Assembly: GCA_947490265.1 (NCBI GenBank)
Contig: CANLGQ010000009.1
Span: forward strand, 1 to 34,070
Direction: 5' to 3'
DNA length: 34,070 nt
Source of the DNA: Pseudomonadota bacterium
GTDB taxonomy: Bacteria > Myxococcota_A > UBA796 > GCA-2862545
Made by a program: the position numbers and the translations under genes. The notes below the pieces were generated by a model. That model ran no database searches, had not been told where the DNA came from, and was given only the letters and a program-made list of their open reading frames with translations. Below, in pieces: positions 8,169 to 34,070 of the stretch (within the stretch, counting starts at the first letter, position 1; each line of letters starts with the position of its first letter).

Positions 8169-8188
8169 CCGCGTACCCTCACGGTCGA

Positions 8189-8216
8189 AGCATACACTAC
8201 CGACGCTGCAGGTGAA
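8189..8216 (-). promoter_or_regulatory. Possible sigma-70-type promoter for the MopE lipoprotein gene
   Basis: On the minus strand TTCACC (8211-8216) and TATGCT (8189-8194) are separated by 16 bp, each matching the consensus at four of six positions. The site overlaps the 3' end of tlyA and would give a short leader of about 15-20 nt before the ATG at 8168. A separate promoter fits the unrelated function of the lipoprotein. Matches this weak are expected by chance in GC-rich DNA. Confidence 0.3.
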
Positions 8217-10558: not shown

Positions 10559-10561
10559 CGG

Positions 10562-10975: not shown

Positions 10976-10981
10976 CGGAAC

Positions 10982-11701: not shown

Positions 11702-11713
11702 CGTGGCAACTCC

Positions 11714-14697: not shown

Positions 14698-14737
14698 GCG
14701 CGACGCGTCCGACTACCCGCCGAGGCGAACAAGGCTT

Positions 14738-14760
14738 CCGAAGGCCCTTCGGTCCGGACC
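14738..14760. promoter_or_regulatory. Overlapping palindromes in a divergent intergenic region
   Basis: The 123-bp spacer between the zinc-ribbon/TPR gene (minus) and the Ser/Thr kinase gene (plus) contains CCGAAGG-c-CCTTCGG (14738-14752). It runs directly into the perfect 10-bp palindrome GGTCCGGACC (14751-14760). Their central position in a divergent promoter region fits an operator controlling both genes. A TACGCT hexamer at 14807-14812 could be a -10 element for the kinase with a very short leader. Confidence 0.35.
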
Positions 14761-14820
14761 CGACGCCATCGCGCGCGGCGCGGCACACGGCCGGTCGTGA
14801 AACTGCTACGCTCCCGTCGC

Positions 14821-16191
14821 GTGAAACCCGACTCCCGCCGCCGCTTCGTGCTCGGATCCTGCCTGGGGCGCGGAGGCTACGGCGAAGTCTACCGGGCGAC
14901 CCTCCTTTCCACCGGTGGCCTGAGTTCCCAGGTCGCGCTGAAACTGGTCCGCGCTGACCTGCAGGTGCCGCCCGACGCCATCGCGCGCCTCCGCGACGAG
15001 GCCCGGCTCCTCACCCGCCTGGCTCACCCGAACATCGTCCGGGTGATCGACCTGTGCCGCGTCAGCGACGACCTCGAAACCAGCCGCCTCGCCCTCATCA
15101 CCGAGCTCGTAGACGGCTGCGATCTCGAGTCGCTTCGACAGGGCGCCAGTCCGATCGGCCTGCGGGCCGCGGTCGAGGTGATCGGGCGGGTCGCCCGTGC
15201 GCTCGACTCCGCGTGGTCGAGCCCAGGCGCGGACGATCGCCCGCTCAGAGTGGTCCACCGCGACGTGAAGCCGGGCAACATCGCGGTGGGGCGCCATGGC
15301 GACGTCAAGCTGCTCGACTTCGGCATCGCGCGGTTCGAGGGCGAGGAGCGCGAGGCCCGCACCGCCACCGCGCTGCTCGTCGGCAGCCTGCCGTACCTCG
15401 CGCCCGAGCGGTTCCTCGAGCGCGAACCTCAGTCCGCCTCCGATGTCTTCGCGCTTGGCTGTGTGCTGTTCGAGTGCGCGACCGGGGAGCGCTGGTACGA
15501 CGGCGTGAACCCGCGCGACATTCCTGCCCTCGCGACGAACCGCGACCGGTATGAAGCCCGCCGCTGGGAGCGCCTGGCGAGCGTGCCGATCGCCCCCGCG
15601 CTGCAAGCGATCCTCGCCAACACCCTCGGCTGGGAGCACCGCGACCGGGTGTCCGCTGCCGACCTGGCCGACCAGCTCGAGGCGCTCGCCTTGCCTGGCC
15701 CCGCGCTCCGCGCCTGGTGCCGGCAGCGCGACTGGCCGAGCCTCCAGGTACCCGCCGGCGCGCTCGAGGGCCGCACGCTGTATGAGGCAACCCTCGAGAT
15801 CCCCCGCACGCCAGCCTCCACGCCCGCTCCGATCGCGCCTCTCGCCCCTCGGTTCGTCCGTCAGCCGCTGGTCACCGTCGACCCGGTCGATCTCCCCCGC
15901 GCGGCGGCGGGCGGCGGCCGGGTGGCGCCCGTGGTGGTGAGCCTGCAGCGGCCCCGACTCGCCAGCATCGGCGGCGGCACCCACTTCGTGCCCATGATCC
16001 TGGCCCGCCCTCCCCAGGCCCTCTCGCTGGCGCTCCCGGTCGCCCCCGCTCCCGGTCCACCTCCGGCTGCGCCCGCCCACGCGCCGCGGTGGGTGTGGAT
16101 GATTGGTTGCCTCCTCGCGTTTTCCCTGCTCAGCGGGTTCCTCGTCGCCCTGGCGAGCGGGCTCCTCGGGGCGATCGCCTTGTTTGCTTGA
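14821..16191 (+). CDS. Membrane-anchored Ser/Thr protein kinase (Hanks type)
   Basis: A 456-aa protein with an N-terminal eukaryotic-type kinase domain (about 8-285). It has a glycine loop GRGGYGEV (16-23), catalytic Lys41 (VALKLV), HRDVKPGN (146-153), DFG (166-168), and GSLPYLAPE ending at about 196. All catalytic residues are intact and it is an RD kinase, so it should be active. A Pro/Ala-rich region (about 330-420) leads to one hydrophobic helix at the extreme C-terminus (about 424-455). The kinase would be tail-anchored in the inner membrane with essentially no outside sensor domain. The start is GTG 14821, 10 residues before the kinase fold. GTG 14797 is also in frame, and upstream in-frame codons run antisense through the zinc-ribbon gene and are spurious. 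No Shine-Dalgarno site is visible, so it may be leaderless or nearly so. Confidence 0.92.
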   Translation: MKPDSRRRFVLGSCLGRGGYGEVYRATLLSTGGLSSQVALKLVRADLQVPPDAIARLRDEARLLTRLAHPNIVRVIDLCRVSDDLETSRLALITELVDGCDLESLRQGASPIGLRAAVEVIGRVARALDSAWSSPGADDRPLRVVHRDVKPGNIAVGRHGDVKLLDFGIARFEGEEREARTATALLVGSLPYLAPERFLEREPQSASDVFALGCVLFECATGERWYDGVNPRDIPALATNRDRYEARRWERLASVPIAPALQAILANTLGWEHRDRVSAADLADQLEALALPGPALRAWCRQRDWPSLQVPAGALEGRTLYEATLEIPRTPASTPAPIAPLAPRFVRQPLVTVDPVDLPRAAAGGGRVAPVVVSLQRPRLASIGGGTHFVPMILARPPQALSLALPVAPAPGPPPAAPAHAPRWVWMIGCLLAFSLLSGFLVALASGLLGAIALFA

Positions 16192-16447: not shown

Positions 16448-18493
16448 ATGCCGGCCGCATCCGTGTCAGGACTGCTAGGAATGATCGCCGCCCACCAGGA
16501 CCTGGGGCAGTACCAGGAACTGCTCTGGGAAGGCGGATTTGGCGACTACCTCGACATCGTCCGCCAGGATCCCGGCGTGGCGCGAAACGCCTACCAGCGA
16601 CTCTACGACCTCGTCGTGTCGTACGGGCACGAGGATTACACCGAGTACAAGAAGAGTATCCGTCGTTACACGTTCTTCGACGATCCCTTCGAACAGGGGT
16701 CCGATGCCGTGTTCGGACTCGACGTCCACCTCATGAAGCTGGTCCGCGTGCTGCACGCCGCGGCCCTCGGCTATGGCCCCGAGCGACGGGTGATCCTCCT
16801 CCACGGTCCAGTGGGCTCGTCGAAGTCGACCATCGCCCGGCTGTTCAAGAAGGGCCTGGAGGCGTACTCCCGCTCCGAAAAGGGACGGCTCTACAGCTTC
16901 GTCTGGGTGGACGCGAACGGGAAAGAGACGCCGTGCCCGATGAACGAGGAGCCGCTGAAGCTCCTGCCCGAGTCGACCCGACCCGCGGTGCTGAACGAGA
17001 TCAACGGCGGAAGCCGGACCCCGTACCCGGTTCGCCTCGAAGGCGACCTCTGCCCGGTGTGCCGACACCTGTACCGCGAGGTGATGCGCGAGGTCCACGG
17101 CGACTTCCTCGAGCTCGCCAAGCGAATCAAGGTGCGCCGGCTGGTGCTCTCCGAGCGCGACCGGATCGGGATCGGCACCTTCCAACCGAAGGACGAGAAG
17201 AACCAGGACTCTACCGAACTTACCGGCGACATCAATTACCGGCTCATCGCCGAGTATGGGTCAGACTCCGACCCCCGGGCGTTCAACTTCGACGGGGAGT
17301 TCAACGTCGCGAACCGCGGCCTCATCGAATTCATCGAGGTGCTCAAGCTCGACGTGGCGTTCCTCTACGACCTGCTGGGCGCCTCGCAGGAGCACCGAGT
17401 AAAACCGAAGAAGTTTGCGCAGACCCACATCGACGAAGTCATCCTCGGCCACACCAACGAACCCGAATTTCGGCGCCTACAGAACAACGAGTACATGGAG
17501 GCGCTGCGCGACCGCACGATCAAGATCGACGTGCCGTACATCACCCGCCCGAGCCAGGAAGCGCGGATCTACCAGAAAGACTTCAATCGCCGCAAAGTGG
17601 CGGCGCACATCGCGCCCCACACCATCGAAACGGCGGCCTTGTGGGCGGTGCTCACCCGGCTGGAAGAGCCCAGCAACCACAAGCTCAGCCTGATTCAAAA
17701 GGCCCGACTCTACGACGGACGCGCCATCCCCGGCTTCACCGAGGATCACGTGAAGGAGCTCCGAAAGACCGCGAAGCGCGAAGGTCTGGAGGGGATCTCT
17801 CCCCGCTACATTCAAGACAAGATCAGCAACGCCCTGGTGCGCAACCCGGGCGTCACCTGCATGAACCCGTTCATGATCCTGAACGAGCTCGACAGCGGCC
17901 TCGACCAGCACAGCCTGCTCTCCGGCGACGAACAGAAGGAGCGGTTCCGCGAGCTCCTGGGCGTCGTGAAGCAGGAATACGAGGACCAGGTAAAGAACGA
18001 GGTTCAAAAGGCAATCTCGGCCGACGAGGGCGCGCTCCGTCGGCTCTCCGGAAACTACATCGACAACCTGCGAGCCTATGTGCTGAAGGAGAAGGTGCGC
18101 AACGCATTCACCGGGGCAGCCGAGGAGCCGAACGAGCGGCTCCTTCGATCGATCGAGGAGAAGATCGACATCCCCGAGGGGCGGAAAGACGATTTCCGCC
18201 GCGAGCTCATGAACTACATCGCCGGGCTCGCGCTCGATGGAAAGACCTTCGACTACACGATGAACGAGCGCCTGCACCGGGCGCTCGAGCTCAAGCTGTT
18301 CGAGGACAGCAAGGACAGCATCAAGCTGACGAGCCTCGTGACGCAAGTGGTCGACGCCGAAACCCAGGCGAAGATCAACATCGTGAAACAGCGTTTGATC
18401 GACCACTACGGCTACTGCGAAACCTGCAGTTCCGACGTGCTCCAGTACGTGGCCAGCATCTTCGCCCGCGGCGATGCCTCTCCTCGAAAATAG
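16448..18493 (+). CDS. prkA: PrkA family serine protein kinase
   Basis: A 681-aa cytoplasmic protein of the PrkA/YeaG family, AAA+-related kinases or proteases tied to stress, stationary phase and sporulation. The AAA-type core has Walker [10 protein letters not shown] (120-128) after RVILLHG. Later family-typical stretches include [57 protein letters not shown] and [13 protein letters not shown], and the PrkA C-terminal domain follows. Length is close to the family norm of about 640 aa. The ATG follows GAGGAGGAG at good spacing. It is the first gene of the conserved prkA-yeaH-spoVR module found in many proteobacteria and spore formers. B. subtilis PrkA affects sporulation and E. coli YeaG affects nitrogen-starvation survival. 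A role in starvation or development is likely but inferred. Confidence 0.96.
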
Positions 18494-18509
18494 CGCTCGG
18501 AGGTGACCG

Positions 18510-19589
<1,080 letters not shown>

Positions 19590-19593
19590 CGCC

Positions 19594-21126
19594 ATGTCCC
19601 GGATGCCCAGTCGGTTCCTGCGCGAAGGCCGCCAACTCCCCGGCGAGCTCGAGGAGGCGCGACAGTCGATCGAGGCGCTCGCCCGAAGCTATGGCCTCGA
19701 TTTCTTCGACACGATCTTCGAGATGTGCACCTACGACGAGATCAACATGGTGGCCGCTTACGGTGGCTTTCCCACCCGGTATCCGCACTGGCGGTTCGGG
19801 ATGGAATTCCTCGAGATGCAGAAGTCCTATGAGTACGGCCTTTCGAAGATCTACGAGATGGTGATCAACACCGACCCCTCCTACGCCTACTTGATGGACT
19901 GCAACCTCGTCGTCGACCAGAAGCTCGTGATGGCCCACGTTTTCGGGCATGTCGATTTCTTCAAGAATAACGCCTGGTTTGCGCACACCAACCGCAAGAT
20001 GCTCGACGAGATGGCGAACCACGCGACGAAGGTTCGCAACGCGATGGAGAAGCACGGGACGGGCGAGGTCGAGGCCTTTATCGACCAGTGCCTCTCGATC
20101 GACAACCTGATCGACCCCCACGGGCCCCACATCGTCCGCCGCCGACCCATCGACGAGGACGCTTTGGACAGCGAAGCCCCCCGTGCCGACATCCCCAAGA
20201 TGCCGGCCCGCGACTACATGGACAAGCACATCAATCCACCGGACTACCTCGAGGACCAGCGCAAGCGCCGAGACGACGAGATACGGCGGATGAAGGGGTT
20301 TCCCGAGGAGCCGGTGCGCGACGTGATGGCGTTCGTGCTGGAGCACGCACCGCTGCCGCGCTGGAAGCAGGAAATCCTGCGGATGATCCACGACGAGGCC
20401 GAGTACTTCGCGCCCCAAGCCCAGACGAAGGTGATGAACGAGGGGTGGGCCTCGTACTGGCACACCCTGCTCATGACCCGCCATATCCTCGCTCCCAGCG
20501 AGGTGATCGACTACGCCGACCATCACAGCGGCACCACCGCCATGCGCCCGGGTCAGTTCAACCCGTACAAGATCGGGCTGGAGCTGTGGCGCCACATCGA
20601 GGAGCGCTGGAACAAGGGCCGCTTCGGGAAGGAGTGGTTGGACTGTGACGACCCCGTGCTGCGCCGGAACTGGGACACCGGCGCCGGCCTCGGCCGGGAA
20701 AAGATCTTCGAGATCCGGCGCACCCACAACGACATCACGTTCCTCGACACGTTCCTCACCGAGGACTTCTGCCGAGAGATGGGGTTCTTCACTACGAAAT
20801 TCGACCCGAAGTCGCGGGAGTGGTTGCTCGACAGCCGGGAGTTCCACGAGGTGAAACAAGGCCTCCTGAACCAGTTGGCCAGTCGAGGAAGTCCCCGGAT
20901 CTACGTCGTCGACGCGAACCACGAGAACCGAGGCGAGCTGCGCCTGTGGCACGATTACGACGCGCTCGATCTGCAGCTCGAGTGGGCCACCGTGACGCTC
21001 GGGAACCTCGTCTCCCTGTGGGGTGGGCGACCCGTGCACGTCGACACCCGCGTCGAGGGAAAGCCGGTGCGACTGACCCACGACGGCTCGGAGATGAAAC
21101 GACAGACCCGAAAGGAGGAAGAATGA
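19594..21126 (+). CDS. spoVR: SpoVR family protein (YcgB)
   Basis: A 510-aa cytoplasmic protein, the same length class as E. coli YcgB. Family features are YGLDFFDTIFEMCTYDEINMVAAYGGFPTRYPHW, YAYLMDCNLVVDQKLVMAHVFGHVDFFKNN, HDEAEYFAPQAQTKVMNEGWASYWH and NPYKIGLELWRHIEERW. Several conserved His and Glu residues suggest a metal site, but no reaction is established. SpoVR is needed for normal spore cortex in Bacillus. In Myxococcota the module is plausibly linked to starvation or fruiting-body development (inference). Its Shine-Dalgarno GGAGGT (19582-19587) overlaps the yeaH stop. Its own stop overlaps the next gene (ATGA). Confidence 0.95.
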   Translation: MSRMPSRFLREGRQLPGELEEARQSIEALARSYGLDFFDTIFEMCTYDEINMVAAYGGFPTRYPHWRFGMEFLEMQKSYEYGLSKIYEMVINTDPSYAYLMDCNLVVDQKLVMAHVFGHVDFFKNNAWFAHTNRKMLDEMANHATKVRNAMEKHGTGEVEAFIDQCLSIDNLIDPHGPHIVRRRPIDEDALDSEAPRADIPKMPARDYMDKHINPPDYLEDQRKRRDDEIRRMKGFPEEPVRDVMAFVLEHAPLPRWKQEILRMIHDEAEYFAPQAQTKVMNEGWASYWHTLLMTRHILAPSEVIDYADHHSGTTAMRPGQFNPYKIGLELWRHIEERWNKGRFGKEWLDCDDPVLRRNWDTGAGLGREKIFEIRRTHNDITFLDTFLTEDFCREMGFFTTKFDPKSREWLLDSREFHEVKQGLLNQLASRGSPRIYVVDANHENRGELRLWHDYDALDLQLEWATVTLGNLVSLWGGRPVHVDTRVEGKPVRLTHDGSEMKRQTRKEEE

Positions 21127-21542: not shown

Positions 21543-21598
21543 CCTCACCCCCGCGCAGATCCGGTCGACTCGCGGCTACACTGCCCGGGGAGGTGGAC

Positions 21599-23056
21599 GT
21601 GTGGTTGGCCCTGTCCGTGAGCTTGGCCGCAGCCCGCATGCCTTGTGGGACGGAGGAGGCGCTCCGCCATGCGCCGCCACCGGCCCGCGCGCCGCGCGCC
21701 GCTGCGCCCCCGTCCGAACCCGCCCACCGCGACCCCTACGGCGTAGAAAACGTGAGAACCAGCGCTAATTTCGCCGTGCGATGGGGGCCCGACTACATCC
21801 CCGAGGAGCAGGTCACCCAGCTGTTGAACGCGATGGAGATCGCCTGGAGCGTCCAGGTCACGAACATGGGCCACCCGCGCCCGCTCGGGACCGACCAGTG
21901 GTACTTCAACGTGTACATCGGCAATACGGGGGGCGGTGCGCCCAGTATCGGCGACTTCGGCGGGTTTCAGACGTTCGACTCCGACGGCTACCCGATGATC
22001 GTGATGAACCCGCTCACCCTGGACGACGAAGACGGGGCGGAGGCCACCGCGATCCACGAGTTCTATCACGCCATTCAGAGCTCTCTCGGCCGCTACCCGT
22101 ATGCCGGCCTCGGCGCCTGGTACTGGGAGGCCACCGCCGAGTGGGCCGCCGCTTCGACCCGTCCCACCAACCCCGCCGTCGGCTCGAGCGCCTACGGGTA
22201 TGCGTTGCTCCCGGATCTGCCGGTCAACTTCTTCGACTACCCCGACTCGAACGCGCTCCAGGAGAGCCATCAGTACGGGGCCTTCCTCTTTCCGTGGTAC
22301 CTCTCTGGCCTCTTCGGCCCGGAGCTGATCCGCGACACCTGGGTGATTCCCGGGTCCTCCGACGACCCGCTCGAGGTCCTCCGGGAGCAGCTCGCGCTGC
22401 GGGGCGAGGACTTCGACGCGGTGTGGCTCGACCACATCGCCACCCTGGCCGCGTGGGACTTCCCCATGGCCGACCTGTGGCATGACGAGGTCACCTACCT
22501 GGCGAACTATGTGGGAAGTCGGCAATACGCCGGCGTCTTCTCCACGGATGGGCGGCACGAGCCCCTGCGACGCGAGGGCTGGGGCGAGGCCCCGGGACGC
22601 TACGGCTTCAACGTATTCGTGCTGCAAGACCCGCGGTTCGGCGACGTGGACATCGAGGTCACCGGCGACGCCCTGGGCGACGCCGGGAGTCCGGCCACGT
22701 TCGTGGCTCGGGTCGTCCACATCGACGGCTACGACGCCCGGTACACCCCGCTGGTGTTCGACGGCGCGACGGCCCGCGCGACGGTGCCGGTCGACGGCGC
22801 CGACCAGGTGCTGCTGGTGGTGGGGGCCCTCACCCCGGCAACCACCCACTGGGACAGCGAGACCTTCGCGTTCACGATGACGATGTCGATCGGGGAGCCG
22901 CCGGATCCCGGATCGGGTGGGTTGTCCATCGAAACCCCGAAACCGACCGAACCAGTGCCCTCGGTCTGTGCCACCGGTGCTGAGACGTGGAGCCCGCTGA
23001 CCTTGGCCGTCCTCCTGGCCCTCCGACGACGATCACGCGCCCCGAACCGCGTTTGA
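21599..23056 (+). CDS. Secreted HExxH metalloprotease-like protein with a MYXO-CTERM-like tail
   Basis: A 485-aa protein with a short hydrophobic N-terminus (WLALSVSLAAARMP) that probably serves as a signal peptide. Its zinc motif is HEFYH (about residues 153-157, in AEATAIHEFYHAIQ). A downstream WYWEATAEWAA could supply a Glu ligand as in gluzincin-type peptidases. A C-terminal half rich in Val/Thr/Asp is probably beta-sandwich. The C-terminus has Cys-Ala-Thr-Gly, a hydrophobic stretch (LTLAVLLAL) and RRRSR. This matches the Cys-hydrophobic-basic plan of the MYXO-CTERM sorting signal for surface attachment. I chose GTG 21599 because GGGGAGG (21587-21593) is correctly spaced for it; GTG 21593 would overlap that site. 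TACACT at 21576-21581 may be a -10. It converges with the following minus-strand gene with one base between stops. Confidence 0.85.
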   Translation: MWLALSVSLAAARMPCGTEEALRHAPPPARAPRAAAPPSEPAHRDPYGVENVRTSANFAVRWGPDYIPEEQVTQLLNAMEIAWSVQVTNMGHPRPLGTDQWYFNVYIGNTGGGAPSIGDFGGFQTFDSDGYPMIVMNPLTLDDEDGAEATAIHEFYHAIQSSLGRYPYAGLGAWYWEATAEWAAASTRPTNPAVGSSAYGYALLPDLPVNFFDYPDSNALQESHQYGAFLFPWYLSGLFGPELIRDTWVIPGSSDDPLEVLREQLALRGEDFDAVWLDHIATLAAWDFPMADLWHDEVTYLANYVGSRQYAGVFSTDGRHEPLRREGWGEAPGRYGFNVFVLQDPRFGDVDIEVTGDALGDAGSPATFVARVVHIDGYDARYTPLVFDGATARATVPVDGADQVLLVVGALTPATTHWDSETFAFTMTMSIGEPPDPGSGGLSIETPKPTEPVPSVCATGAETWSPLTLAVLLALRRRSRAPNRV

Positions 23057-23057: not shown

Positions 23058-26000
23058 TCAGGGCGTTCGGCCGCCGATGGACGCCCAGGTCTCGTCGGCC
23101 AGGGCCGTGAGCTCCGCGGAGAATCGCCCCGAGAAGCGATCCTCGGTCCGTCGGGCGAGCTCAGCCGCCTCGACCCGATTCCCCCCCCGAGCCAGCGTGC
23201 TCGCCAGCCGAAGGGCGAACTGGATCTCGAGGTTCGATCCCGTCCCGCGCAGCGCCTCAGCCGCCTCGTGGGCGCACGTGCGCGCATCGTCCGAATCTCC
23301 CCGAGCCAGCGCAACGTCGTGAAGGGCCCATAGCAACTCGGCCTCGACCGCTCGCCAGCCACCGCCCCGCGCGGCCACCAGCCCAGATCGAAGCCAGGGT
23401 TCGGCCTGCTCGTGCTGCCCGAGCCTGGCGAGGCCGCGTCCGAGCACCCCGTGGCAACGACCGACCCACAATGGTTCGCGCACCGCAAAGATCCGGCACG
23501 CTTCCAGGGCGAGTTCGGTCGCATCCTCACCGGCCTCGAAACGCGTCGTTGCGAGACCCATGCGCACGAGGCCAGCCAACCGGGAACCCAGATCCGTCTG
23601 GAGCGACTCCGCGCGCTCCCAGGCGGCGCGGGAGCCCGGGAGGTCACCGCGCAGACCCAGGGACGTTCCAAGCGCGCAAAGCACCCGCGACTCGAGGTCT
23701 TCGCTCGCTCCCTCGACTCGGCGCGCCGCCGCGAACAAGCGCGGGAGCGGATCCTCGCCGGTGTGCACCGCGAGTTGGCTCGCCACGATCGCGTACTCGG
23801 CGTGCCGAAGGTCGTGTAGGGGGATCGCAGCGGCGGCGGCAGCGGCTGTCCACAGGTCGAGAAGCCCCTGGCACTCGCCGACGTTGCCGACGTTCACCGC
23901 CTCCGCGGCAGCCGCCTGAAGACCGGGCAGCGCATCGGCGGGACGCCCCGCACCCACCAGGTGGCGACCCCGTCGACCGTCGCTCCCCGGACCGGTGGAC
24001 ACTTCAGCGCACGCCTCGTGCCACCAATGGGCACGGCCCGCGCTGACCGCCGCCGCGCACAGCGCCTCGCGAAACGGTGCGCTCCCCAATTCGGGGGGCA
24101 GCGCCTCGACCGGAGGAACGACCCCCGCGGCCAAACACGCCGCGCGCCAGGTGGCCTCGGACGCCCCGGCTCCGAGGGTGGCGGCGATCTCCCATGCCGC
24201 GCGCCGCTCGGTGCCCAGTGGGGCGAGAACCTCGATGCGAGCCAGCTCGATCGCGCGAACATCCTCCGGGAGCGAGACCGCGAACTCGGGCCGCAGTGCA
24301 AAGCCCTCGTCGGTCACCACCAGCTGATCCCGATCGGCGAGCCACCGAAGCAACCTCACCGCAAAACCCGGGTTTCCGTCCGCTCGGCGGGCGAGCCCGA
24401 CTCGCGTCATGCGCTCGAGGGGAAGGAGTCGATCGAGGATCGATTGGACCTCCAGGTCCGACAGGGGGCCCAACGCTAGGCCGGCCTCGAGGTGTAGGGC
24501 AGGGGGTCGGACCGCGGCGGCGAGCACCAGCGCACCCGCCTGGATCCACCCGGTCACGACCGGAAGGTCGGCCGGCTCCAGGTCATCGGCGAGTACCACC
24601 CGAGGCCGACGCCCGCTGCCTGGCGGGATCGCGCCAAGGCGCACGACCTCGGCCGCGCCGCTCGCCAGGCACAGCTCCCCAAAGGCCCGGAGAAAGTGAC
24701 TTCGACCCACCCCGGGGGGCCCCGTCGCGAGCACGCAGGCGCCGGGCCCACCCGAGGCGATCCGGGCGAGGGCCTGCCACGCGAGGTCGACCGCCTCGTC
24801 GCGGCCGACCAGGGGTGACACCCGCGCCGCCAGCAGCCCCTCCCCGAGGCCGCTCAGGAACGGCGTGGGGGGAGAGACCCCAATCGACCGCCAACCCGGC
24901 GGAAACGGGGCCGGCGGTGGCCGCGGGCGGGACGCGGGCGGCGGCAGGGGGCTCAGGTCGCCCACCGGGGTGATGCGCGTGGAGCCGAACGCATCGGGGA
25001 GTGCGACCGCGGCGGGCGCAAGCGAGCGGCTGGGGCCCGGCGGCGACCGCGCCGGCCCGAGGGCGGACAGCGCTGCGAGCGCGTCCGCGGCTGTTTCGAA
25101 CCGGTCGATGGGTGCTTTCTCCAGCAACACCCGAAGCCAGGCCTCGAGCCCCTCCGGCACCTCCATGGCGGGAACCAACGGCGGGATCGGCGCGCCACAT
25201 TGGGCGAGGAGGAGCTCCACCGGGTCGGATCCCCGAAACACGGTTTCGCCTGTGACCAGGCGCCACACCAACCCGCCCAGTGCGTACAGGTCCGTCCACG
25301 GGCCGATTTCGTCCGTCCTTCCCCGCGCCTGCTCCGGAGCGAGGTAGGCCGGGGTCCCAAACGCGCAGCCGCTCCGGCGCGACATCATGCCGACCAGTCC
25401 AAAGTCGGACAGCCGAGCCGAACTTGGGTTTCCCGTAGCGTCGAGGAGCACGTTGTCGAGCTTGACGTCGAGGTGGAGCACGCCCCGGGCGTGGGCGTGG
25501 GCAAGGGCCCCGAGCATCGCCTCCGAGATCTGGCGAACCTCCCGCCACCCCCACCGATCGGCGTGCCGGGCCGCCACGCCGCCCCCCATGTACTCCATCA
25601 CCAGGCAGGGGCTGCCCTCGGGCTGCCCCAGCATCGCCCCCGCGCCTGCGTCCAGCCGCAGGAACGCCAGCGTCTGCACCACGTGCGGGTGATCCAGGCT
25701 GGCTACCGCCGCGACCTCGTCCGAGAACAGAGCGTCGAGATCACCGTGATCTCCCCCCGCATCCAGGCGAAGCACCTTGAGCGCCACGTCTCGACCGGAG
25801 GCGCGGTGCACGCCCCGCCACACCTGACCCATTCCCCCTTCCCCGAGCAGATCCCCGACCGAGAACGGCCCCACCGGCACCCCGGCGCCTCGCCCTCGGA
25901 GCACCACGAGCTGCGGAAGCGCCACGTCCTGCGCGAGGCCTGCACGCCGCGCGAGCTGGAGCGCCAACGCGGCCCGATCCGGGTCGCCCTCGAGCCGGCG

Positions 26001-27050
26001 CACGCACAACTGCAGCGCCCGAATCGCGATGACGTCTGAGCGAACCCGATCGAGCGCCCGCTCGACCTCAGCGAGCGCGCGATCCAGGCCGGCCCGGTCT
26101 CCCCGCGTGGCCGCGATCGCGGCGACCACCGCGCGGAACGACAGGTCACCGAGGAGGGCCGGATCGGCCTGAGGAAGCGACTGTTCCGCGAGGTCTGGTT
26201 CGCCGATGCGGATCCAGGCTTCGGCGAGGAGCAGAGCACCTTCTCGCGCGGCGGCTCCGGGTGGAGGAGAGACATCGGCCAACAGCCCGATGGCCCGGCG
26301 CGGATCGTCGTCGATCAGCGCAAGTCGGGCCGAAAGGACCGTGGCCTCGGCGCCAAACAGCGGGCTGGACCCCAGCAGCGGCTTGGCCCGCCCGAGGAAG
26401 GTCGCAGCCTCGGCCGGATCGCGACTGGCCAGCACGAGGGCGAGGGTCATAAAAAGCGGCGCCAACGGTGTCTGGTTCGGGATGCCCTCCATCCGGCTGA
26501 TTGCCGACCGCAACTGCCGCTCGGCCTCCTCGCTCCGCCCGAGCCGCATCAAGCAGGTCCCCGCACCGTACTCGGCATTGGCCTCGCCATAGGCGTCGCC
26601 CAAAGCGCGGTACCGTCCCGCGGCCGCAGTGTAGCGCGCGGCAGCTTCTCCGAAGATCTCGCGGTGCTCCAGGGTAGACGCCAAGAACCGCTGACCGTGG
26701 GCCAAAACCCACGGATCTACGCCGATCTGAATCGCCCGCTCCAAGGGCGGCGCCCCGCCCATCGCGTCGCCCACCATCGCCCGGGCCGTGCCGAGCCCGA
26801 GCAACGCCAGAGTGAGCACGGTCGGATCGCCCCGGGCCGCATCGAGTTCGGCCACGAGGGGCTCGAAGCGCGCGGCGGCTGCGCGCGCGTCTTCGCCGAG
26901 CGCAGCCCACGCCTCCGTCAGCCGGACTTCCGCACGACCCGGTGTCACCGGGCCATCCAGCAGGGCGATTGCACCCCGGACGTCCCCTGCGCGGAACCGT
27001 TCGATGAGTTCGGCCTCGGGACCGCTCACGAGAAAGCCATGCTCTGCCAC
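23058..27050 (-). CDS. TPR-protein kinase-STAND ATPase-TPR protein, paralog A
   Basis: A 1330-aa cytoplasmic multidomain protein with no signal peptide or membrane helix. Residues 1-390 are helical TPR-like repeats (AEHGFLVSGPEAEL opening). The kinase domain spans about 393-665: glycine loop GEGGMGQV (403-410), Lys425, the catalytic loop HLDVKLDN (526-533) instead of HRD, DFG (549-551) and FGTPAYLAPE ending at 573. A Pro-rich linker (about 668-730) precedes a STAND/AAA-16-type ATPase. This opens with PLVGRDEA and has Walker A GPPGVGRS (777-784, Arg instead of Lys), RPRVVLADDLE and RRADGNPGFAV. The last 300 residues are TPR-like. Related kinase-AAA-TPR proteins include mycobacterial PknK, though its kinase is N-terminal. 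I chose GTG 27050 by homology to the tandem paralog upstream. It lies 59 bp downstream of that paralog and is probably co-transcribed. Confidence 0.9.
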   Translation of the reverse strand: MAEHGFLVSGPEAELIERFRAGDVRGAIALLDGPVTPGRAEVRLTEAWAALGEDARAAAARFEPLVAELDAARGDPTVLTLALLGLGTARAMVGDAMGGAPPLERAIQIGVDPWVLAHGQRFLASTLEHREIFGEAAARYTAAAGRYRALGDAYGEANAEYGAGTCLMRLGRSEEAERQLRSAISRMEGIPNQTPLAPLFMTLALVLASRDPAEAATFLGRAKPLLGSSPLFGAEATVLSARLALIDDDPRRAIGLLADVSPPPGAAAREGALLLAEAWIRIGEPDLAEQSLPQADPALLGDLSFRAVVAAIAATRGDRAGLDRALAEVERALDRVRSDVIAIRALQLCVRRLEGDPDRAALALQLARRAGLAQDVALPQLVVLRGRGAGVPVGPFSVGDLLGEGGMGQVWRGVHRASGRDVALKVLRLDAGGDHGDLDALFSDEVAAVASLDHPHVVQTLAFLRLDAGAGAMLGQPEGSPCLVMEYMGGGVAARHADRWGWREVRQISEAMLGALAHAHARGVLHLDVKLDNVLLDATGNPSSARLSDFGLVGMMSRRSGCAFGTPAYLAPEQARGRTDEIGPWTDLYALGGLVWRLVTGETVFRGSDPVELLLAQCGAPIPPLVPAMEVPEGLEAWLRVLLEKAPIDRFETAADALAALSALGPARSPPGPSRSLAPAAVALPDAFGSTRITPVGDLSPLPPPASRPRPPPAPFPPGWRSIGVSPPTPFLSGLGEGLLAARVSPLVGRDEAVDLAWQALARIASGGPGACVLATGPPGVGRSHFLRAFGELCLASGAAEVVRLGAIPPGSGRRPRVVLADDLEPADLPVVTGWIQAGALVLAAAVRPPALHLEAGLALGPLSDLEVQSILDRLLPLERMTRVGLARRADGNPGFAVRLLRWLADRDQLVVTDEGFALRPEFAVSLPEDVRAIELARIEVLAPLGTERRAAWEIAATLGAGASEATWRAACLAAGVVPPVEALPPELGSAPFREALCAAAVSAGRAHWWHEACAEVSTGPGSDGRRGRHLVGAGRPADALPGLQAAAAEAVNVGNVGECQGLLDLWTAAAAAAAIPLHDLRHAEYAIVASQLAVHTGEDPLPRLFAAARRVEGASEDLESRVLCALGTSLGLRGDLPGSRAAWERAESLQTDLGSRLAGLVRMGLATTRFEAGEDATELALEACRIFAVREPLWVGRCHGVLGRGLARLGQHEQAEPWLRSGLVAARGGGWRAVEAELLWALHDVALARGDSDDARTCAHEAAEALRGTGSNLEIQFALRLASTLARGGNRVEAAELARRTEDRFSGRFSAELTALADETWASIGGRTP

Positions 27051-27109
27051 CCTGGTTGGGGGGACCCTACCGCGCCTGAGCGCGCCGGCCGGGGGCGAGC
27101 ACGGTGGCC

Positions 27110-30100
27110 TCAGGGGCCGAGGGCTTGGCGGGCCTCGTCGGACAGCGCACGGAGCGCCGCGGTGAACCGACCGAGAAAGCGGTCCTCGGTGCGCTGGAGG
27201 AGCGTCCTCGCCTCGGCGCGCTCGCCGGCGCGAGCCAGCGCGCTGGCCAACCGGAGGGTGTGTTCGAGCTCGTGCCTCGATCCCGTCCCGCGCAGCGTCT
27301 CGAGGGCGTCGCGGGCCCAGGACAGGGCGAGGAGCGGGTCGCCACGCGCCAGGGCGCCGTCGTGGAGCGACCAGAGCGCATCCGCTTGAGCCCCTCGCCA
27401 GCCCGCCTTCCGCGCCGCTGCAAGGCCCAATCGAAGCCACGGCTCGGCGTCGGCGTGTCGCCCGAGCTGGGCGAGCCCCCGCCCCACCACGAGGCGACAC
27501 CGCTCAGCCAGCGCCGCGTCGTGCCGGGCGAGGATCAACCCCGCCTCGAGCGCGAGATCGGTCGCATCTTCTCCACATTCGAAGCGGGTTGTCGCCATAC
27601 CCATGCGGGCCAGTCCGGCCCAAATCGACCCCGAGTCGGCTTCCAGGGCCACGACCCGCTCGAACGCGGCGAGCGAGCCCGCCCGGTCGCCGTGGTTCCT
27701 GAGCTTCCCGCCGAGCGAGTAGAACACCCTCGATTCCCGGTCGCCACCTGTTCCTTCGACGCTCCGCGCCGCCTCGCGCAGTTGCGGGAGCGCGTCCTCG
27801 CCGGTGTGATCCGCCAACGTACTCGCGACCACCGCGAAGTCGGCGCGGCGTGGATCGTCGTTGGCGATCGCCGCCGCGGCCGCGGTGGCCGACCACAGAT
27901 CGAGCAAGCTCTGGCACTCGGCCACATCGCCCGCATTCACAGCGTCTGACGCTGCCAATCGAAGGAGGTTCAGCGCCTCCTGGAGACGCCCGGCGCCCAC
28001 CAGGTGCCGACCGCGACGGCCCTCGTTCTCCCGGCCCGTGGACACCTCGGCGCACGCGGCGTGCCACACGTGGGCCCGGCCGGCTGTTGCCGCCGCGGAG
28101 CAGAGCGCCTCGCGAAAGGGCGCGCCCGCCAGCTCGGCGGGTAGCCCCTCCGGCGGCGGCGCCACCCTCGCCACCGCGCAGGCTGCGCGCCACGTGGCCT
28201 CGGACGCGCCGGCCCCGAGCGTGGCGGCGATCTCCCAGGCCGCCCGCCGTGCGGTTCCCAGCGGGGCCTGGGCCTCGATGCGAGCGAGCTCGATCGCGGC
28301 GACATCCTCCGGGATCGACGCTGCGAACTCGGGCCGCAGTGCGAAGCCCTCGTCAGTCACCACCAACTGGTCGCGGTCGGCGAGCCAGCGAAGCAGCTTC
28401 ACCGCAAAACCCGGGTTTCCATCTGCCCGACGCGCGAGCCCTATCCGCGTCATTCGCTCGAGGGGAAGCAGCCGGTCGAGCACCGACTGGATCTCCAACT
28501 CCGACAACCCCCGCAAGGACACGCTCTCCGAGAACGGCCCCGCAAAGGGACGCACCCCGGTAGCGAGCACCAGCGCGCCCTCTCCGATCCACCCGGTCAC
28601 GAGGGGAAGCCCGGCCGGCTCGAGGTCGTCGGCGAGGACCACCCGCGGCCGACGGCCCGGGCCCGGCGGCACCGACCCGAGGTTCACCACCTCAGCCGCC
28701 CCGCTCGTCCGGCACAGCGCGCCGAACGCCCGGAGAAAGTGGCTTCGACCGACCCCGTGGGGCCCCGTCGCGAGCACGCACGCCCCGGGCCCCCCCGAAG
28801 CGATTCGGGCAAGCGCTCGCCACGCGAGCTCGATCGCGTCGTCGCGGCCGACCAACGGCGACACCCGCGCCGCGAGCAGCCCCTCCCCGAGTCCGCTCAG
28901 GAACGGCGGGGGGGCCGAGCCCCGGAACGACCGCCAGCTCCCCGGAAACGGAGCGGGCGGGGGACGCGCGCGGGAGACCGGCGGCGGCGCCGAGTCCAGG
29001 CCGCCCACCGGGCTGATGCGCGTGGAGCCGAATGCATCCGGCAGCCCGGCCGCGGCCGGCACGACCGGCTGGGCCGTCCGCGGATCGGCCCGCGCGGGCC
29101 CGAGGGCCGACAGTGCGGCGAGCGCGTCCGCCGCCGTTTCGAACCGTTCGACCGGTGCTTTCTCCAGCATCACCCGAAGCCAGCCCTCCAGCCCCTCCGG
29201 CACCCCCATCCGGGGAACCAACGGAGGGATCGGCGCGCGGCACTGGGCCACGAGGAGCTCCACCGCATCGGCGCCGCGAAACACCGTCTCGCCCGTGACC
29301 AGGCGCCACACCAGCCCGCCCAGCGCGTACAGATCTGTCCATGGGCCGATCTCGTCCGTGTTTCCCCGCGCTTGCTCGGGCGCCAAGTAGGCCGGGGTGC
29401 CGAAGGCGCAGCCGCTTCGACGCGACATCATGCCGACCAGTCCGAAGTCCGCGAGTCGCGCCGAGCCCGGGTCTCCCGTGGCGTCGAGCAACACGTTGTC
29501 GAGCTTCACGTCGAGGTGGAGCACGCCCCGGGCGTGGGCATGGGCCAGCGCCCCGAGCATGGCCTCGGCGATCTGCAGCACGTCTGGCCACGCCCACCCC
29601 TCGGCATGGCGGCCCGCCGCGCCACCCCCCACGTACTCCATGGCCAGGCACGGGCTGCCCTCGGGTTGCCCCAACATGGCCCCCGCGCCCGGGTCGAGAC
29701 GCAGGAACGCCAGCGTCTGCACCACGTGGGGGTGATCCAGGCTGGCCACTGCTGCCACCTCGTCCGAAAACAGGGCGTCTAAATCACCTTGATCTCCGCC
29801 CGCATCCAGCCGGAGGACCTTCAGCGCCACCTCCCGACCCGAGGTGCGGTGCACGCCCCGCCACACCTGCCCCATCCCGCCTTCTCCGAGCAACTGCCCC
29901 ACCGAGAACGGCCCGACCGGCACTCGGGCGCCGCGCCCTCGAAGCGCCACCAGTTGAGGAAGCGCCACCTCGGCAGCCAGCCCGGCGCGCCGCGCGAGCT
30001 GCACCGCCAGCGCCGCGCGATCGGGGTCGTCGTGCAGGCGCTGCGCACACCAGGACAGCATGGGAACCGCGGTCACATCGGAGCGAACGCGGTCGAGACC

Positions 30101-31096
30101 GCGCTCCACCTCGGCGAGCGCCCGATCGAGGTCGCCCTGGCCGCCCCGCAGGACGGCGATCGCGGCGGTCACGGCGCGGAAGGACAGGTCGCCAAGAAGG
30201 GTCGGATCGGCCGCCGGGAGCGCCTGCTCGGCGCGCTCCGCGTCCCCGAGTCGGACCCACGACTCGGCGACCAGCACGGCGCCTTCGCGCATCGCGTCTT
30301 CGGGGAGTGGACCCTGCCCCAGCAGCGCAAGCGCGGCGCGTGGATCGTCGCGCAAGAGCGCCAGCCGCGCGGACATCAGCTCCACATTGGCGAGTTCACC
30401 TGCGTGCGATCCCGCTCGCTCCCGGGCCCGCTCCACCAGCCGAACCGACTCGGCCGGGTCGCGCCCGGCGACGGCCAGGGCCAGCATCAGCAGGTGCGTT
30501 GCGGCGGGTCGCGCCGTGGGGAGGGCCTCGTACCGGTGGATCGCCGACCGCATCCGGCGCTCTGCCTCGTCCGAGCCACCTAATCTCATCAAGCACAGCG
30601 CGGCGCCACACTCGGAGCTCGCGAGCCCCCAGTCGTCGCCCCCGACCCGGTACCCCGCGGCCGCGGCCTCGTAGCGCGTGGCGGCCTCCGCGAAGGCCTC
30701 CCGAACCTCCAGGGTGATGGCAAGCAATCGTTGGCCATGCGCCTGGATCCAGGAGTCGGCCCCGACCTGAATCGCCCGCTCCAGCGGCGGCGCGGCAGCC
30801 AGCGGCTCGCCGAGCATCGCGCGAGCGCTCCCAAGCCCGAGCAGCGCGAGGGCGAGCCGCACCGGATCGCCCGGCGACCCGTCGAACTCCGAGACAAGAG
30901 GTTGGAAGAGCGCTGCCGCCGCTCGAAAGTCGACTCCGAGCACCCTCCACGCCTCGACGAGCCGGACCTCCACGCAACCTGGCGCGGCTGCGCGACACGC
31001 CTCGAGAAGGCCAAACGCGCCCGGGAGGTCACCGACCCGGAGCCGCTGGACGAGCTCGGCTTCGGGACGGCTCACGAGAAACCCATGCACAGCCAC
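27110..31096 (-). CDS. TPR-protein kinase-STAND ATPase-TPR protein, paralog B
   Basis: A 1328-aa protein with the same layout as paralog A. TPR-like helices occupy 1-390. The kinase spans about 394-665, with GEGGMGQV (404-411), Lys426, HLDVKLDN (527-534), DFG (550-552) and APE (572-574). A Pro-rich linker (about 670-730) leads to a STAND ATPase with PLVGRDDA, Walker A GPHGVGRS (778-785, again Arg for Lys), VVLADD (819-824) and ADGNPGFAV (891-899). TPR-like helices continue to the end. Kinase and ATPase cores are nearly identical to paralog A, while the first 390 residues have diverged much more, so the two may share an output but sense different inputs (inference). The start is GTG 31096 (MAVHGFLVS). 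The ribosome site is weak and a hairpin ends five bases upstream. It is the first gene of the B-A pair and is divergent from the gene at 31244. Confidence 0.9.
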   Translation of the reverse strand: MAVHGFLVSRPEAELVQRLRVGDLPGAFGLLEACRAAAPGCVEVRLVEAWRVLGVDFRAAAALFQPLVSEFDGSPGDPVRLALALLGLGSARAMLGEPLAAAPPLERAIQVGADSWIQAHGQRLLAITLEVREAFAEAATRYEAAAAGYRVGGDDWGLASSECGAALCLMRLGGSDEAERRMRSAIHRYEALPTARPAATHLLMLALAVAGRDPAESVRLVERARERAGSHAGELANVELMSARLALLRDDPRAALALLGQGPLPEDAMREGAVLVAESWVRLGDAERAEQALPAADPTLLGDLSFRAVTAAIAVLRGGQGDLDRALAEVERGLDRVRSDVTAVPMLSWCAQRLHDDPDRAALAVQLARRAGLAAEVALPQLVALRGRGARVPVGPFSVGQLLGEGGMGQVWRGVHRTSGREVALKVLRLDAGGDQGDLDALFSDEVAAVASLDHPHVVQTLAFLRLDPGAGAMLGQPEGSPCLAMEYVGGGAAGRHAEGWAWPDVLQIAEAMLGALAHAHARGVLHLDVKLDNVLLDATGDPGSARLADFGLVGMMSRRSGCAFGTPAYLAPEQARGNTDEIGPWTDLYALGGLVWRLVTGETVFRGADAVELLVAQCRAPIPPLVPRMGVPEGLEGWLRVMLEKAPVERFETAADALAALSALGPARADPRTAQPVVPAAAGLPDAFGSTRISPVGGLDSAPPPVSRARPPPAPFPGSWRSFRGSAPPPFLSGLGEGLLAARVSPLVGRDDAIELAWRALARIASGGPGACVLATGPHGVGRSHFLRAFGALCRTSGAAEVVNLGSVPPGPGRRPRVVLADDLEPAGLPLVTGWIGEGALVLATGVRPFAGPFSESVSLRGLSELEIQSVLDRLLPLERMTRIGLARRADGNPGFAVKLLRWLADRDQLVVTDEGFALRPEFAASIPEDVAAIELARIEAQAPLGTARRAAWEIAATLGAGASEATWRAACAVARVAPPPEGLPAELAGAPFREALCSAAATAGRAHVWHAACAEVSTGRENEGRRGRHLVGAGRLQEALNLLRLAASDAVNAGDVAECQSLLDLWSATAAAAAIANDDPRRADFAVVASTLADHTGEDALPQLREAARSVEGTGGDRESRVFYSLGGKLRNHGDRAGSLAAFERVVALEADSGSIWAGLARMGMATTRFECGEDATDLALEAGLILARHDAALAERCRLVVGRGLAQLGRHADAEPWLRLGLAAARKAGWRGAQADALWSLHDGALARGDPLLALSWARDALETLRGTGSRHELEHTLRLASALARAGERAEARTLLQRTEDRFLGRFTAALRALSDEARQALGP

Positions 31097-31101
31097 CCAG
31101 G

Positions 31102-31140
31102 GTACCGACCGTTAGCTCGTCTACACGAGAACGTCGGTAC
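31102..31140. promoter_or_regulatory. Long hairpin just upstream of paralog B
   Basis: GTACCGACCGTT (31102-31113) pairs with AACGTCGGTAC (31130-31140) with a single bulged C. An inner stem CTCGT (31116-31120)/ACGAG (31125-31129) encloses the loop CTAC. Sixteen base pairs in 39 nt is much more than typical background. On the minus strand it ends five bases before the GTG start of paralog B, so it could be a 5'-UTR structure controlling initiation, or an operator at DNA level. Confidence 0.55.
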
Positions 31141-31145
31141 GCGCC

Positions 31146-31216
31146 CCGGCCATCTTGATCCCGGCGATGTGGCCGGTTACCCGGACGGGTCGGCGCCGCC
31201 CGCAACTTCGGGTGGC
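31146..31216. promoter_or_regulatory. Two further inverted repeats in the divergent spacer
   Basis: CCGGCCATC (31146-31154) faces GATgtGGCCGG (31166-31176), with one extra base in the right arm. GCCGCCCG (31195-31202), loop CAACTT, and CGGGTGGC (31209-31216) form an eight-pair stem with one G-U. With the neighbouring hairpin they nearly fill the spacer. No T-run follows, so they are not ordinary terminators. Confidence 0.4.
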
Positions 31217-31220
31217 CCGC

Positions 31221-31242
31221 ATAACGGTTTAAGGCGGGTTAT
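31221..31242 (+). promoter_or_regulatory. ATAAC/GTTAT inverted repeat before the gene at 31244
   Basis: An AT-rich patch in otherwise GC-rich DNA contains ATAAC (31221-31225) and GTTAT (31238-31242) in inverted orientation around GGTTTAAGGCGG, ending one base before the ATG. AAGGCGGG (31231-31238) could be the ribosome site. The patch may be an operator or -10 region; the short arms make this weak. Confidence 0.3.
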
Positions 31243-31243
31243 C

Positions 31244-34070
31244 ATGAGTATGGTGGATACTGCGGTGGCTGCCGGCCGCTGTGCGGTGGCCGTGTCGGGG
31301 GCCTTGTTGCGCGATGCCGACGTCATGCTGGCGCTCACCGAGCGGCCGGGCCTCTCGGCGCTGGCCCTCAGCGGCCCGGCCCAGGCGCCGGTAGCGGCGG
31401 TCGGAGAACCTGGCCTCGCCCCCGCGCTGCAGCGCGACGGCGTGCTGGTGCTGATCGAACCCGAGGGTGCCGATGCGGTCGGCGTCGAGGCCATCGTCAA
31501 GCACCTCGATCGCGCAAAGGCGAAGCCGACCATCGTGGTGGTCGCCCGCGCCTGGAACCCCTTCCAGTTCCCGAAGCTCTCGGGGTTCAAGGTCGTTCAC
31601 GAGAAGGGCCGAGGCAAGCCGTACGTTCAAGGTCTCCCGAAGGGCCCGCCCGCGTCCACCGTCGGCGCCCCGGACGCCGAGGTCGAGGCGGCCCCCCGCG
31701 CACCGGCGCCGGGCGAACCGGCCGCGCCGCGCTTCGCGTTCGTCGGCCGCGAGGACGATCAAGCGGCCCTCGTCGCGTTCCTGGGCGAGGGCGGACCCAT
31801 CGCGGTCAGCGGAGCGCGCGGGATCGGTCGGAATTGGCTCGTCGAGCACGCGATCGCCGCGACGTCGCTGGTCCGCCTGCCGGATCTGTCCCTCGGTTGG
31901 GGCACCGGCTTCGACGTGCTGATCGCCCGGCTGGCCGAGCTGTGCCGAACCGCCGGGAGCCCCGAGCTCGCCACCGCACTGACCGCCGGCGCGCTGCCCC
32001 CCGAAAAGATCGACACGGTCGTCTCCACCCTCGCCAAAGCCGACCTCGCCGGGAAGGTGATGGTGGTGCGGCACCTCGAATTCGGCCTCGGTCGCGAGCC
32101 CGACTTCTTCCGGCGGAGCCGCCTCGAGCTCCTGCTCGAAGCGCTCCTCTGCGGCTCGTTCTCTCTCCGACTCGTCTTCGTGTCGACCCGGCAGCCCCAA
32201 TTCCACCGGGAAGGGGCGGCCGTCGGACTGCGTCGTCTGGAAGTCGGCGGGATCAAAGGTCGCTTCTACCAGGAGATCTTCTCGGCCTACAAGGCGCCCG
32301 AGTTCCCCCGAGATCGCTTCGGCCCCATGCACGAGAAGCTGCACGGGCACCCGGTCGCGATCCGGGTCCACGCCATCGCCGTGCGCGACCGGCCCGATGG
32401 ACTCGCCTTGACGGAGGACCCGCGTTTCCTCAAGCTCGACTCTGCCGAAGACCTCGATGCCGTCGGTAAGCAGATCCAAAAGAAGCTGGAGCGCCTCTCC
32501 GACGAGAACCGCAAGCTCCTCTCGCGGCTCGCCCACTGCCGGATCCCGGTGCCAGGCGGCCTCCTGTCCGACCTCGGCGTCTCGCGGAAGGCTCGGTTGG
32601 AGCTCCTCGCCGACGGCCTGCTCGACATGATCGGCACCGAGAACGACAAGAAGTATCGGGTCCACGAGCTGGTTCGCGAGCACCTGTCGTGGCGCGAGAT
32701 CACCGACTTCGACGTGTTCGCGGGCCTCGCCGAAATCTACGGAAAGCTAGCCCGCGAGGCGACCGATCCGATCGAGAAGCTCGCCTTGGTGCAGGAGACG
32801 AACCGCTGCGCGTTCGGCGCGCGGAACAAGAACCTCGCGATGCGACCCGAGTTCCCCGATCACGACCCGCTGCTCGAGGCCGCCATCGGCATGATCCGCA
32901 GCGACAAGCCGCGTTTCGATCTGGCGGGCGAACGGATCGCCGAGGTTCTGAGCCGCGATCCGACGAACAGCGACGGCTGGCTGCTCGAGCTCGAGCGACT
33001 CGACCGAAGCGAAGCACGGCCCGAAGACGTGATCCTGGTCCTCGACCAAGCCCTGGAGAAGGCGCCGGTCCCCGAGCTGTTCCAGTGGGGAGCTGGGTTC
33101 TGGCTCGGTCGCAAACAGCGCCCGAAGGCGATCGCGCTCCTCGAGAAGGCGATCCCGCTGTTGCCGCGCGAGAGCCGGCTGCGCACGCGGCTCGCCTCCC
33201 TTCTGTTGCGCCAAGGCCGCCGGCCGGAGGGCATCGCCCACCTCGAAGAGGCGATGCGGCTCGATCCGCTGCTCCCCGACAGCTACGGCCTGCTCGGACA
33301 GGCCCGCCGCGACGAGGGCGCGCTCGAGGTCGCGGAGACGCTCCTTCGCGAGGCGGTTCGACTGGCCCCCGACGACGCGACGCAGTGCGGCCGGCTCACC
33401 GATCTGCTGATCGCCCGGGCCCGGTCCGCCGAGCCCACCGAGGCTGCGTCGCTCCGCGAGGAGGCGAAAACCTTGCTCGATCCACTGATCAAGGGAGAGC
33501 GGAAGAATGCCGAGGCGCACCTGCTCCTCGCTCGGTTGGTCCGCGAGAGCGGCGGTGACCTCGAGCGGGCCGCTTGGCTGCTCAAGAAGGCCAAGAAGCT
33601 CTCGGATCGGCACAGCGAACGGCACTACCGGATCGCCTACGAGGAAGTGCTCCTCGACGCGATCGCCGGCAACCTCGACCCGGCCGAGTCCGCCGCCCGC
33701 GAGATCTGCGCGCGCGACCCGGCGGGTCACCGAGGCTTCTCGGTGCTCGGCCAGGTGTTGGCGATGCGCGAGATGTATGTCGCCGCCCACGCCGAGTTCC
33801 TGCGGGCGAAAGAGCGCGTGGCACAAGACAGCCTGGAAGCCCGTGAATATGACGACGCGCTCGCCCGGATGCAGACGATGATCGAGGTTCAGGCCGCCCG
33901 GCTCTACGCGGGCGACGACCTCGAGACGCTGCCGAGCGGGCCGAGCCTGGCCGCGTCGACCCGGGTGATTCGCCGCCGCAAGGAGGAGTCGGCACCGCCG
34001 GTGGCCGTCGAGGCCGTCGAGGCCGTCGAGGCCGTCGAGGCCGTCGAGGCCGTCGAGGCCGTCGAGGCCG
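31244..34070 (+). CDS. Degenerate-P-loop STAND-like, TPR-rich protein, 3'-partial
   Basis: An open frame of 942 codons running off the right edge. Residues 1-135 form a domain I do not recognise, possibly Rossmann-like (RCAVAVSGALLRDADVM, DGVLVLIEPEG, PTIVVVARAWNPF). A Pro/Ala linker precedes a STAND-like domain starting FAFVGRED (166-172). Its P-loop is GARGIGRN (190-197), with Arg for Lys and Asn for Ser/Thr, and the Walker B-like strand VMVVRH (272-277) lacks the acidic pair. KLHGHPVAI (366-373) corresponds to the GNP motif of STAND proteins. A winged-helix-like part follows (NRKLLSRLAHCRIPVP, YRVHELVREHL). TPRs occupy about 560-850 (KAIALLEKAIPLLPRESRLRTRLASLLLRQGR, GIAHLEEAMRLDP). A tail of Val-Glu-Ala repeats starts at residue 922. 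It has no signal peptide. The start is ATG 31244, with ATG 31250 as an alternative. It may bind rather than hydrolyse nucleotide and act with the divergent kinase pair (inference). Confidence 0.85.
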   Translation, partial: MSMVDTAVAAGRCAVAVSGALLRDADVMLALTERPGLSALALSGPAQAPVAAVGEPGLAPALQRDGVLVLIEPEGADAVGVEAIVKHLDRAKAKPTIVVVARAWNPFQFPKLSGFKVVHEKGRGKPYVQGLPKGPPASTVGAPDAEVEAAPRAPAPGEPAAPRFAFVGREDDQAALVAFLGEGGPIAVSGARGIGRNWLVEHAIAATSLVRLPDLSLGWGTGFDVLIARLAELCRTAGSPELATALTAGALPPEKIDTVVSTLAKADLAGKVMVVRHLEFGLGREPDFFRRSRLELLLEALLCGSFSLRLVFVSTRQPQFHREGAAVGLRRLEVGGIKGRFYQEIFSAYKAPEFPRDRFGPMHEKLHGHPVAIRVHAIAVRDRPDGLALTEDPRFLKLDSAEDLDAVGKQIQKKLERLSDENRKLLSRLAHCRIPVPGGLLSDLGVSRKARLELLADGLLDMIGTENDKKYRVHELVREHLSWREITDFDVFAGLAEIYGKLAREATDPIEKLALVQETNRCAFGARNKNLAMRPEFPDHDPLLEAAIGMIRSDKPRFDLAGERIAEVLSRDPTNSDGWLLELERLDRSEARPEDVILVLDQALEKAPVPELFQWGAGFWLGRKQRPKAIALLEKAIPLLPRESRLRTRLASLLLRQGRRPEGIAHLEEAMRLDPLLPDSYGLLGQARRDEGALEVAETLLREAVRLAPDDATQCGRLTDLLIARARSAEPTEAASLREEAKTLLDPLIKGERKNAEAHLLLARLVRESGGDLERAAWLLKKAKKLSDRHSERHYRIAYEEVLLDAIAGNLDPAESAAREICARDPAGHRGFSVLGQVLAMREMYVAAHAEFLRAKERVAQDSLEAREYDDALARMQTMIEVQAARLYAGDDLETLPSGPSLAASTRVIRRRKEESAPPVAVEAVEAVEAVEAVEAVEAVEA
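34007..34069 (+). repeat. 9-bp tandem repeat encoding (Val-Glu-Ala)n
   Basis: Seven perfect, in-frame copies of GTCGAGGCC are visible and the array continues beyond the window. Each copy adds Val-Glu-Ala to the C-terminal tail of the STAND-like protein. Length changes by slippage would keep the frame. A repeat at a contig edge may also mark an assembly break, so copy number is unreliable. Confidence 0.93.

Follow-up and report, generated by a model that had tools for sequence, protein, structure and literature searches.

Two probably independent elements at one contig end: a PknK-like kinase-STAND pair and an order-restricted, degenerate STAND gene

Two tandem genes that each join a protein kinase to a STAND-like NTPase lie head to head with a third gene for a large STAND-like TPR protein, and the arrangement raises the question of whether the three work as one module or are separate things that share a location. 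The window, meaning the whole stretch of 34,070 nt that was analyzed, is contig C9 in its entirety, taken from a draft genome (3.76 Mb, 316 contigs, 77.5% complete). The three long ORFs named in a preliminary description of this DNA, here genes A, B and C, are all present and occupy the right end of the contig (Table 1). A and B stand in tandem on the minus strand, with A downstream of the stop codon of B, and a gap of 147 bp separates B from the divergent C. As the window is the entire contig, C is truncated by the contig end; the contig terminates within a Val-Glu-Ala (VEA) repeat of C (window 33950-34070), where the assembly was likely interrupted. We consider it probable that the locus holds two independent things: a genome-specific pair of PknK-like kinase-STAND genes and an order-restricted, vertically inherited pseudo-STAND gene.

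Table 1. Positions of genes A, B and C and of their parts in the window
Feature	Position	Strand
Gene A (1330 aa), with TPRs, a Ser/Thr kinase, a STAND-like NTPase (AAA_16) and further TPRs in this order	23058..27050	-
Kinase domain of A (VALK, HLDVKLDN, DFG, APE; non-RD)	25070..25862 (approximate limits)	-
Gene B (1328 aa), in tandem with its paralogue A and 59 bp upstream of it	27110..31096	-
B, NTPase plus winged-helix region, with GPHGVGRS as Walker A, VVLADD as Walker B and a GNPGF motif	28007..28879	-
B, kinase domain (89% identity with the kinase domain of A)	29102..29917	-
B, N-terminal TPR-like region (61% identity with the same region of A)	29942..31096	-
Gene C, for a STAND-like TPR protein found order-wide in single copy; truncated at the 3' end by the end of the contig	31244..34069	+
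C, N-terminal alpha/beta domain, residues 1-135, conserved in the order	31244..31648	+
C, degenerate STAND core (NBD, HD, WHD; residues 163-500): GARGIGRN, GHPVAIR, YRVHELVRE	31730..32743	+
C, TPR region, approximately residues 501-885	32744..33898	+
C, variable tail with VEA repeats, where the assembly breaks	33899..34069	+

The remainder of the contig carries other recognizable genes. Two overlapping histidine kinase-receiver ORFs at 20-4530 adjoin a sigma-54 activator on the opposite strand, and genes for a MopE-type metal-binding repeat protein, ExbD, ExbB and TonB-like proteins follow at 5958-12436, all on the minus strand. Ahead of a PrkA-DUF444-SpoVR cluster (16448-21126) lies a gene for a Ser/Thr kinase (13849-16191), and a DUF6055/MXAN_6640-like putative metalloprotease gene (21593-23056) is convergent with A, 1 bp separating the two gene ends.

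We set the start of A at the GTG at 27050 by alignment with B and rejected the listed start at 27500, from which the frame would read back into B. The two proteins are 71% identical overall, and the identity varies by region. A and B had been described as sharing a near-identical core with diverged N-terminal TPRs: the first holds for the kinase but not for the NTPase (78%; the winged-helix region has 82%), while the N-terminal TPRs are indeed diverged but not alone in this, the C-terminal TPR end being equally so (59%). With divergence at both ends, a "shared output, changed sensors" reading would fit the pair. Pfam assigns Pkinase (7e-33 and 1e-34) and TPR domains to A and B, and AAA_16 at 5e-5 and 4e-5, under the curated cut-off. 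The catalytic set of these Hanks-type domains (VALK, HLDVKLDN, DFG, APE) is complete in both proteins, with HLD replacing HRD, in support of the kinase output proposed earlier. Proteins of the PknK type have a Ser/Thr kinase, then a MalT/AAA_16-like NTPase and a TPR-like C-terminus. A and B carry an AAA_16/MalT-like NTPase and TPRs after the kinase, and kinase-NTPase homologs are found in the same genome; since their Walker A motif has Arg in place of Lys, we term them PknK-like and not confirmed active members.

The relatives of A and B were surveyed within the order, where genes of the large kinase-AAA_16 family to which they belong are numerous. None of the 57 other genomes of the order held a full-length relative, and the closest, a partial gene from another family, was 40% identical and likewise had Arg in Walker A and HLD for HRD. 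A search of the same 57 genomes with the N-terminal TPR region of B returned a single weak partial match (E 4e-8). Judged by these searches, an N-terminal TPR region of the A/B type appears essentially unique to this genome.

Gene C has a different layout, beginning with an N-terminal alpha/beta domain of ~135 residues; a linker leads from it to the degenerate STAND core, and the TPRs and a variable tail follow. Using a profile of the core (residues 163-500) built from 37 orthologs, we found the best solved match to be PH0952 (PDB 6MFV), with an E value of 2.2e-7 that sums three individually weak blocks; the P-loop, helical and winged-helix blocks are colinear between the two. Pfam detects AAA_16 in 30 and nSTAND6 in 20 of the 37 members. 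C thus has the NBD-HD-WHD core and the subsequent TPR repeats of a TPR-sensor STAND. The TPR protein with a degenerate P-loop that had been placed beside the kinase pair is borne out as C, and Pfam and the 6MFV match agree with all three proteins having a STAND-type architecture and TPRs at their ends. The proposed relation to MalT/PknK-type proteins is likewise supported by the domain searches and the profile match.

The nucleotide motifs of C vary across the order. In the window copy, the Walker A motif reads GARGIGRN and the acidic Walker B residue is missing. Among the 37 orthologs, the Walker A Lys position is filled by Lys in 15 and by Arg in 22, the full GK[ST] is kept in 5, and an acidic Walker B residue in 9; His is the commonest residue at the Walker B position (17/37). 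By contrast with such decay, the motifs behind the closed/open switch persist across the orthologs: the GxP-type motif as GHPxAxR and the WHD His within xVHPLV, with Gly368, Arg374 and His474 invariant. The survey indicates that C retains the scaffold of the switch and has largely lost the motifs for hydrolysis. As the window copy has GRN and no acidic residue, and as GK[ST] and the acidic residue occur together in one ortholog only, C was classified as a degenerate (pseudo) STAND. The same survey bears on a rival account, which concerns the mechanism of C and not the division of the locus into two independent things: C could be a classical ATP-dependent STAND switch that tolerates the Walker changes and is driven by nucleotide binding. 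The conserved Gly-rich loop, GxP-like motif and WHD His would suit such a switch, as would the five intact GK[ST] motifs and the presence of Lys or Arg without exception at the Lys position, but the solitary ortholog with both motifs and the prevalence of His at the acidic position argue against it, and we regard the classical switch as possible though rather doubtful. Binding of ATP by C remains compatible with the motif decay, and Arg or Lys may hold the phosphate.

Arg at the Walker A Lys position had been noted for all three proteins. This is correct for this genome, with GPPGVGRS in A, GPHGVGRS in B and the GRN form in C, but Arg was rejected as a common signature because Lys and Arg are mixed among the C orthologs and because Lys is found in 28 of 32 kinase-AAA proteins with a recognizable motif, making Arg the exception there.

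The N-terminal domain of C has a mean column identity of 59% within the order and matched no Pfam family. Two candidate folds were considered, and neither was accepted. Matches to receiver folds in the PDB were weak (E 0.18-0.53), and a profile alignment to a receiver domain was full-length yet nonsignificant (P 0.12); for SIR2, only 22 columns align (P 0.003) and the TTNYD motif is absent. AlphaFold models made without an alignment were discarded for fold searches, with pLDDT of 38 for this domain and 45 for the rest. A separate SIR2-like gene (MNLPVEVIEAV..RCVLFLGNRAS..FTTNYDD..FVGYRPDEEEFERLF) occurs in loci L149-L157 and their relatives; many genomes from a single family of the order have it, and 22 consecutive residues close to its N-terminus are similar to the beginning of C.

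The distribution of C differs from that of the kinase pair. Searching with C, we found one full-length copy in each of 53 of the 58 genomes of the order; the additional matches were genes split across contigs or weak TPR-only matches. At the class level, C was present in 52/55 genomes of the order and in none of the six others, and at the phylum level, with a query that left out the TPRs, in 42/45 genomes of the order and in none of 241 elsewhere. A search for related loci gave one TPR cross-match in an acidobacterial genome and none in viral contigs. On a gene tree of 38 sequences, the six taxonomic families were grouped with five changes, the minimum, and none of 200 shuffles was as low, which indicates vertical inheritance. 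On this sequence evidence, C is a vertically inherited core gene confined to the order, and it is best read as a pseudo-STAND hub with that history.

We then consider whether A, B and C could nevertheless belong together, as the preliminary description proposed in treating them as a single three-gene module. In such a module, the genes of this species would be transcribed from a common divergent region, with C as a target of the A/B kinases or as the protein through which they work. The divergent arrangement and the short gap are in keeping with this, as is the TPR-STAND-like character of all three proteins, and B and C could be co-regulated here from the 147-bp region. The gap contains a strong hairpin, GTACCGACCGTTAGCTCGTCTACACGAGAACGTCGGTAC, at 31102-31140, 5 nt before the start of B; its pattern occurs once in the window and in none of 100 shuffles, and an operator or a 5' leader structure is possible. 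A second copy of the hairpin arms, in locus L007, falls within a kinase reading frame and was taken as chance. Against the module, a comparison of 40 C neighborhoods from 39 other genomes revealed no ORF matching the N-terminal TPR or the NTPase/C-terminal TPR parts of A and B, the only kinases nearby being generic ones. The conserved neighbor families were limited to uvrC, HAD and fam9: uvrC is the usual divergent neighbor of C in the family to which the window belongs, and a second family often has a gene for a HAD phosphatase ahead of C, in the same orientation. A Pro/Ala-rich gene lies beside C in several genomes from families f3-f6 (L091:5954-8677, L095, L096, L108); its product is kinase-like in its N-terminal part, carries a hydrophobic stretch at the C-terminus and has no Pfam match. 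In the sole same-genus relative, the sequence upstream of C holds other genes and no kinase-STAND gene; as this genome is 80% complete with C split over two contigs, and the source genome is itself incomplete, linkage within the genus is poorly sampled.

C is thus found once per genome across the order and, in the 40 neighborhoods compared, without kinase-STAND neighbors of the A/B type, the very pattern that the preliminary description had named as contradicting its module, while A and B lack a full-length counterpart in the 57 relatives and have an N-terminal region essentially of their own. We therefore hold a functional module to be improbable, and the position of A and B beside C is a feature peculiar to this genome.

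A role in defense had also been suggested as a speculation; in this reading, C or A and B would be antiviral surveillance proteins, either Avs/NLR-like or kinase-based. The combination of STAND and TPR parts resembles Avs/NLR-like sensors, and A and B match the PADLOC models PD-T4-6 and MAD6. These matches are restricted to the generic kinase domain, however, and a different kinase gene of the window reaches equal or higher scores; C has no PADLOC match, and its neighbors are ordinary genes such as uvrC and the HAD phosphatase. Defense genes are typically patchy in distribution, and C, being nearly universal, vertically inherited and single-copy, is unlike them. A known effector, a defense context and a patchy distribution, which mark Avs/NLR-like defense STANDs, were not found, and we consider an antiviral role very improbable.

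For ligands, oligomerization and output, we infer separate schemes for the two independent elements. In A and B, the TPR ends would bind a ligand, upon which the NTPase would open and bring the kinase domains together, leading to phosphorylation of targets. In C, the TPR end may bind a conserved cellular partner and this binding may alter the packing of the NOD against the TPRs, a change that would be relayed to the N-terminal alpha/beta domain and either expose or hide it. The nucleotide step of C is likely reduced or lost, leaving a scaffold or a pseudo-STAND switch driven by binding and not by ATP turnover. A further-reaching idea, which we offer tentatively and think less likely to be right than wrong, is that C founds a class of pseudo-STANDs with a housekeeping role. 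It would be a core hub, present in single copy and defining the order, that has lost nucleotide hydrolysis, responds to binding and carries an output domain of a new kind at its N-terminus. As a rule, STAND proteins are patchily distributed and mobile, and ATP drives them. A near-universal, single-copy, vertically inherited C with decaying ATPase motifs suggests that the NOD-TPR fold can leave nucleotide switching and stay a core part of the cell. The C orthologs, with GK[ST], GKR and GRR forms, provide a natural series for probing the role of each motif, and C supplies a signature gene for the order.

Among known systems, C compares with three. PH0952 (6MFV) is a TPR-sensor STAND serving as a template for MalT, and in such proteins the NBD is held clamped by the arm and sensor; once an inducer binds, the NOD opens, allowing nucleotide exchange and assembly (PMC6468293). 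C matches its NBD, HD and WHD in order and has C-terminal TPRs, but its Walker A and B motifs are degenerate, its N-terminus is occupied by an alpha/beta domain of its own, not by a known effector, and a DNA-binding domain was not found in it. Several C orthologs exceed the curated cut-off of nSTAND6 (PF25201) across nearly the entire model, whereas the window copy stays under it and the catalytic motifs of C are decayed. The iSTAND proteins of vWA-MoxR ternary conflict systems (PMC7159879) resemble C in that a small N-terminal domain is joined to a STAND core that is inactive; they differ in that no vWA or MoxR partner was seen among the conserved neighbor families of C, and in that nearly every genome of one order has a single copy of C, unlike a patchy conflict system. 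For A and B, the closest known system is the mycobacterial PknK-type kinase-STAND (PMC9045387), with which they share the order of kinase, NTPase and TPR-like C-terminus; they depart from it by the ~385 residues of TPR-like repeats ahead of the kinase, by the Arg in Walker A and the HLD for HRD, and by their tandem duplication.
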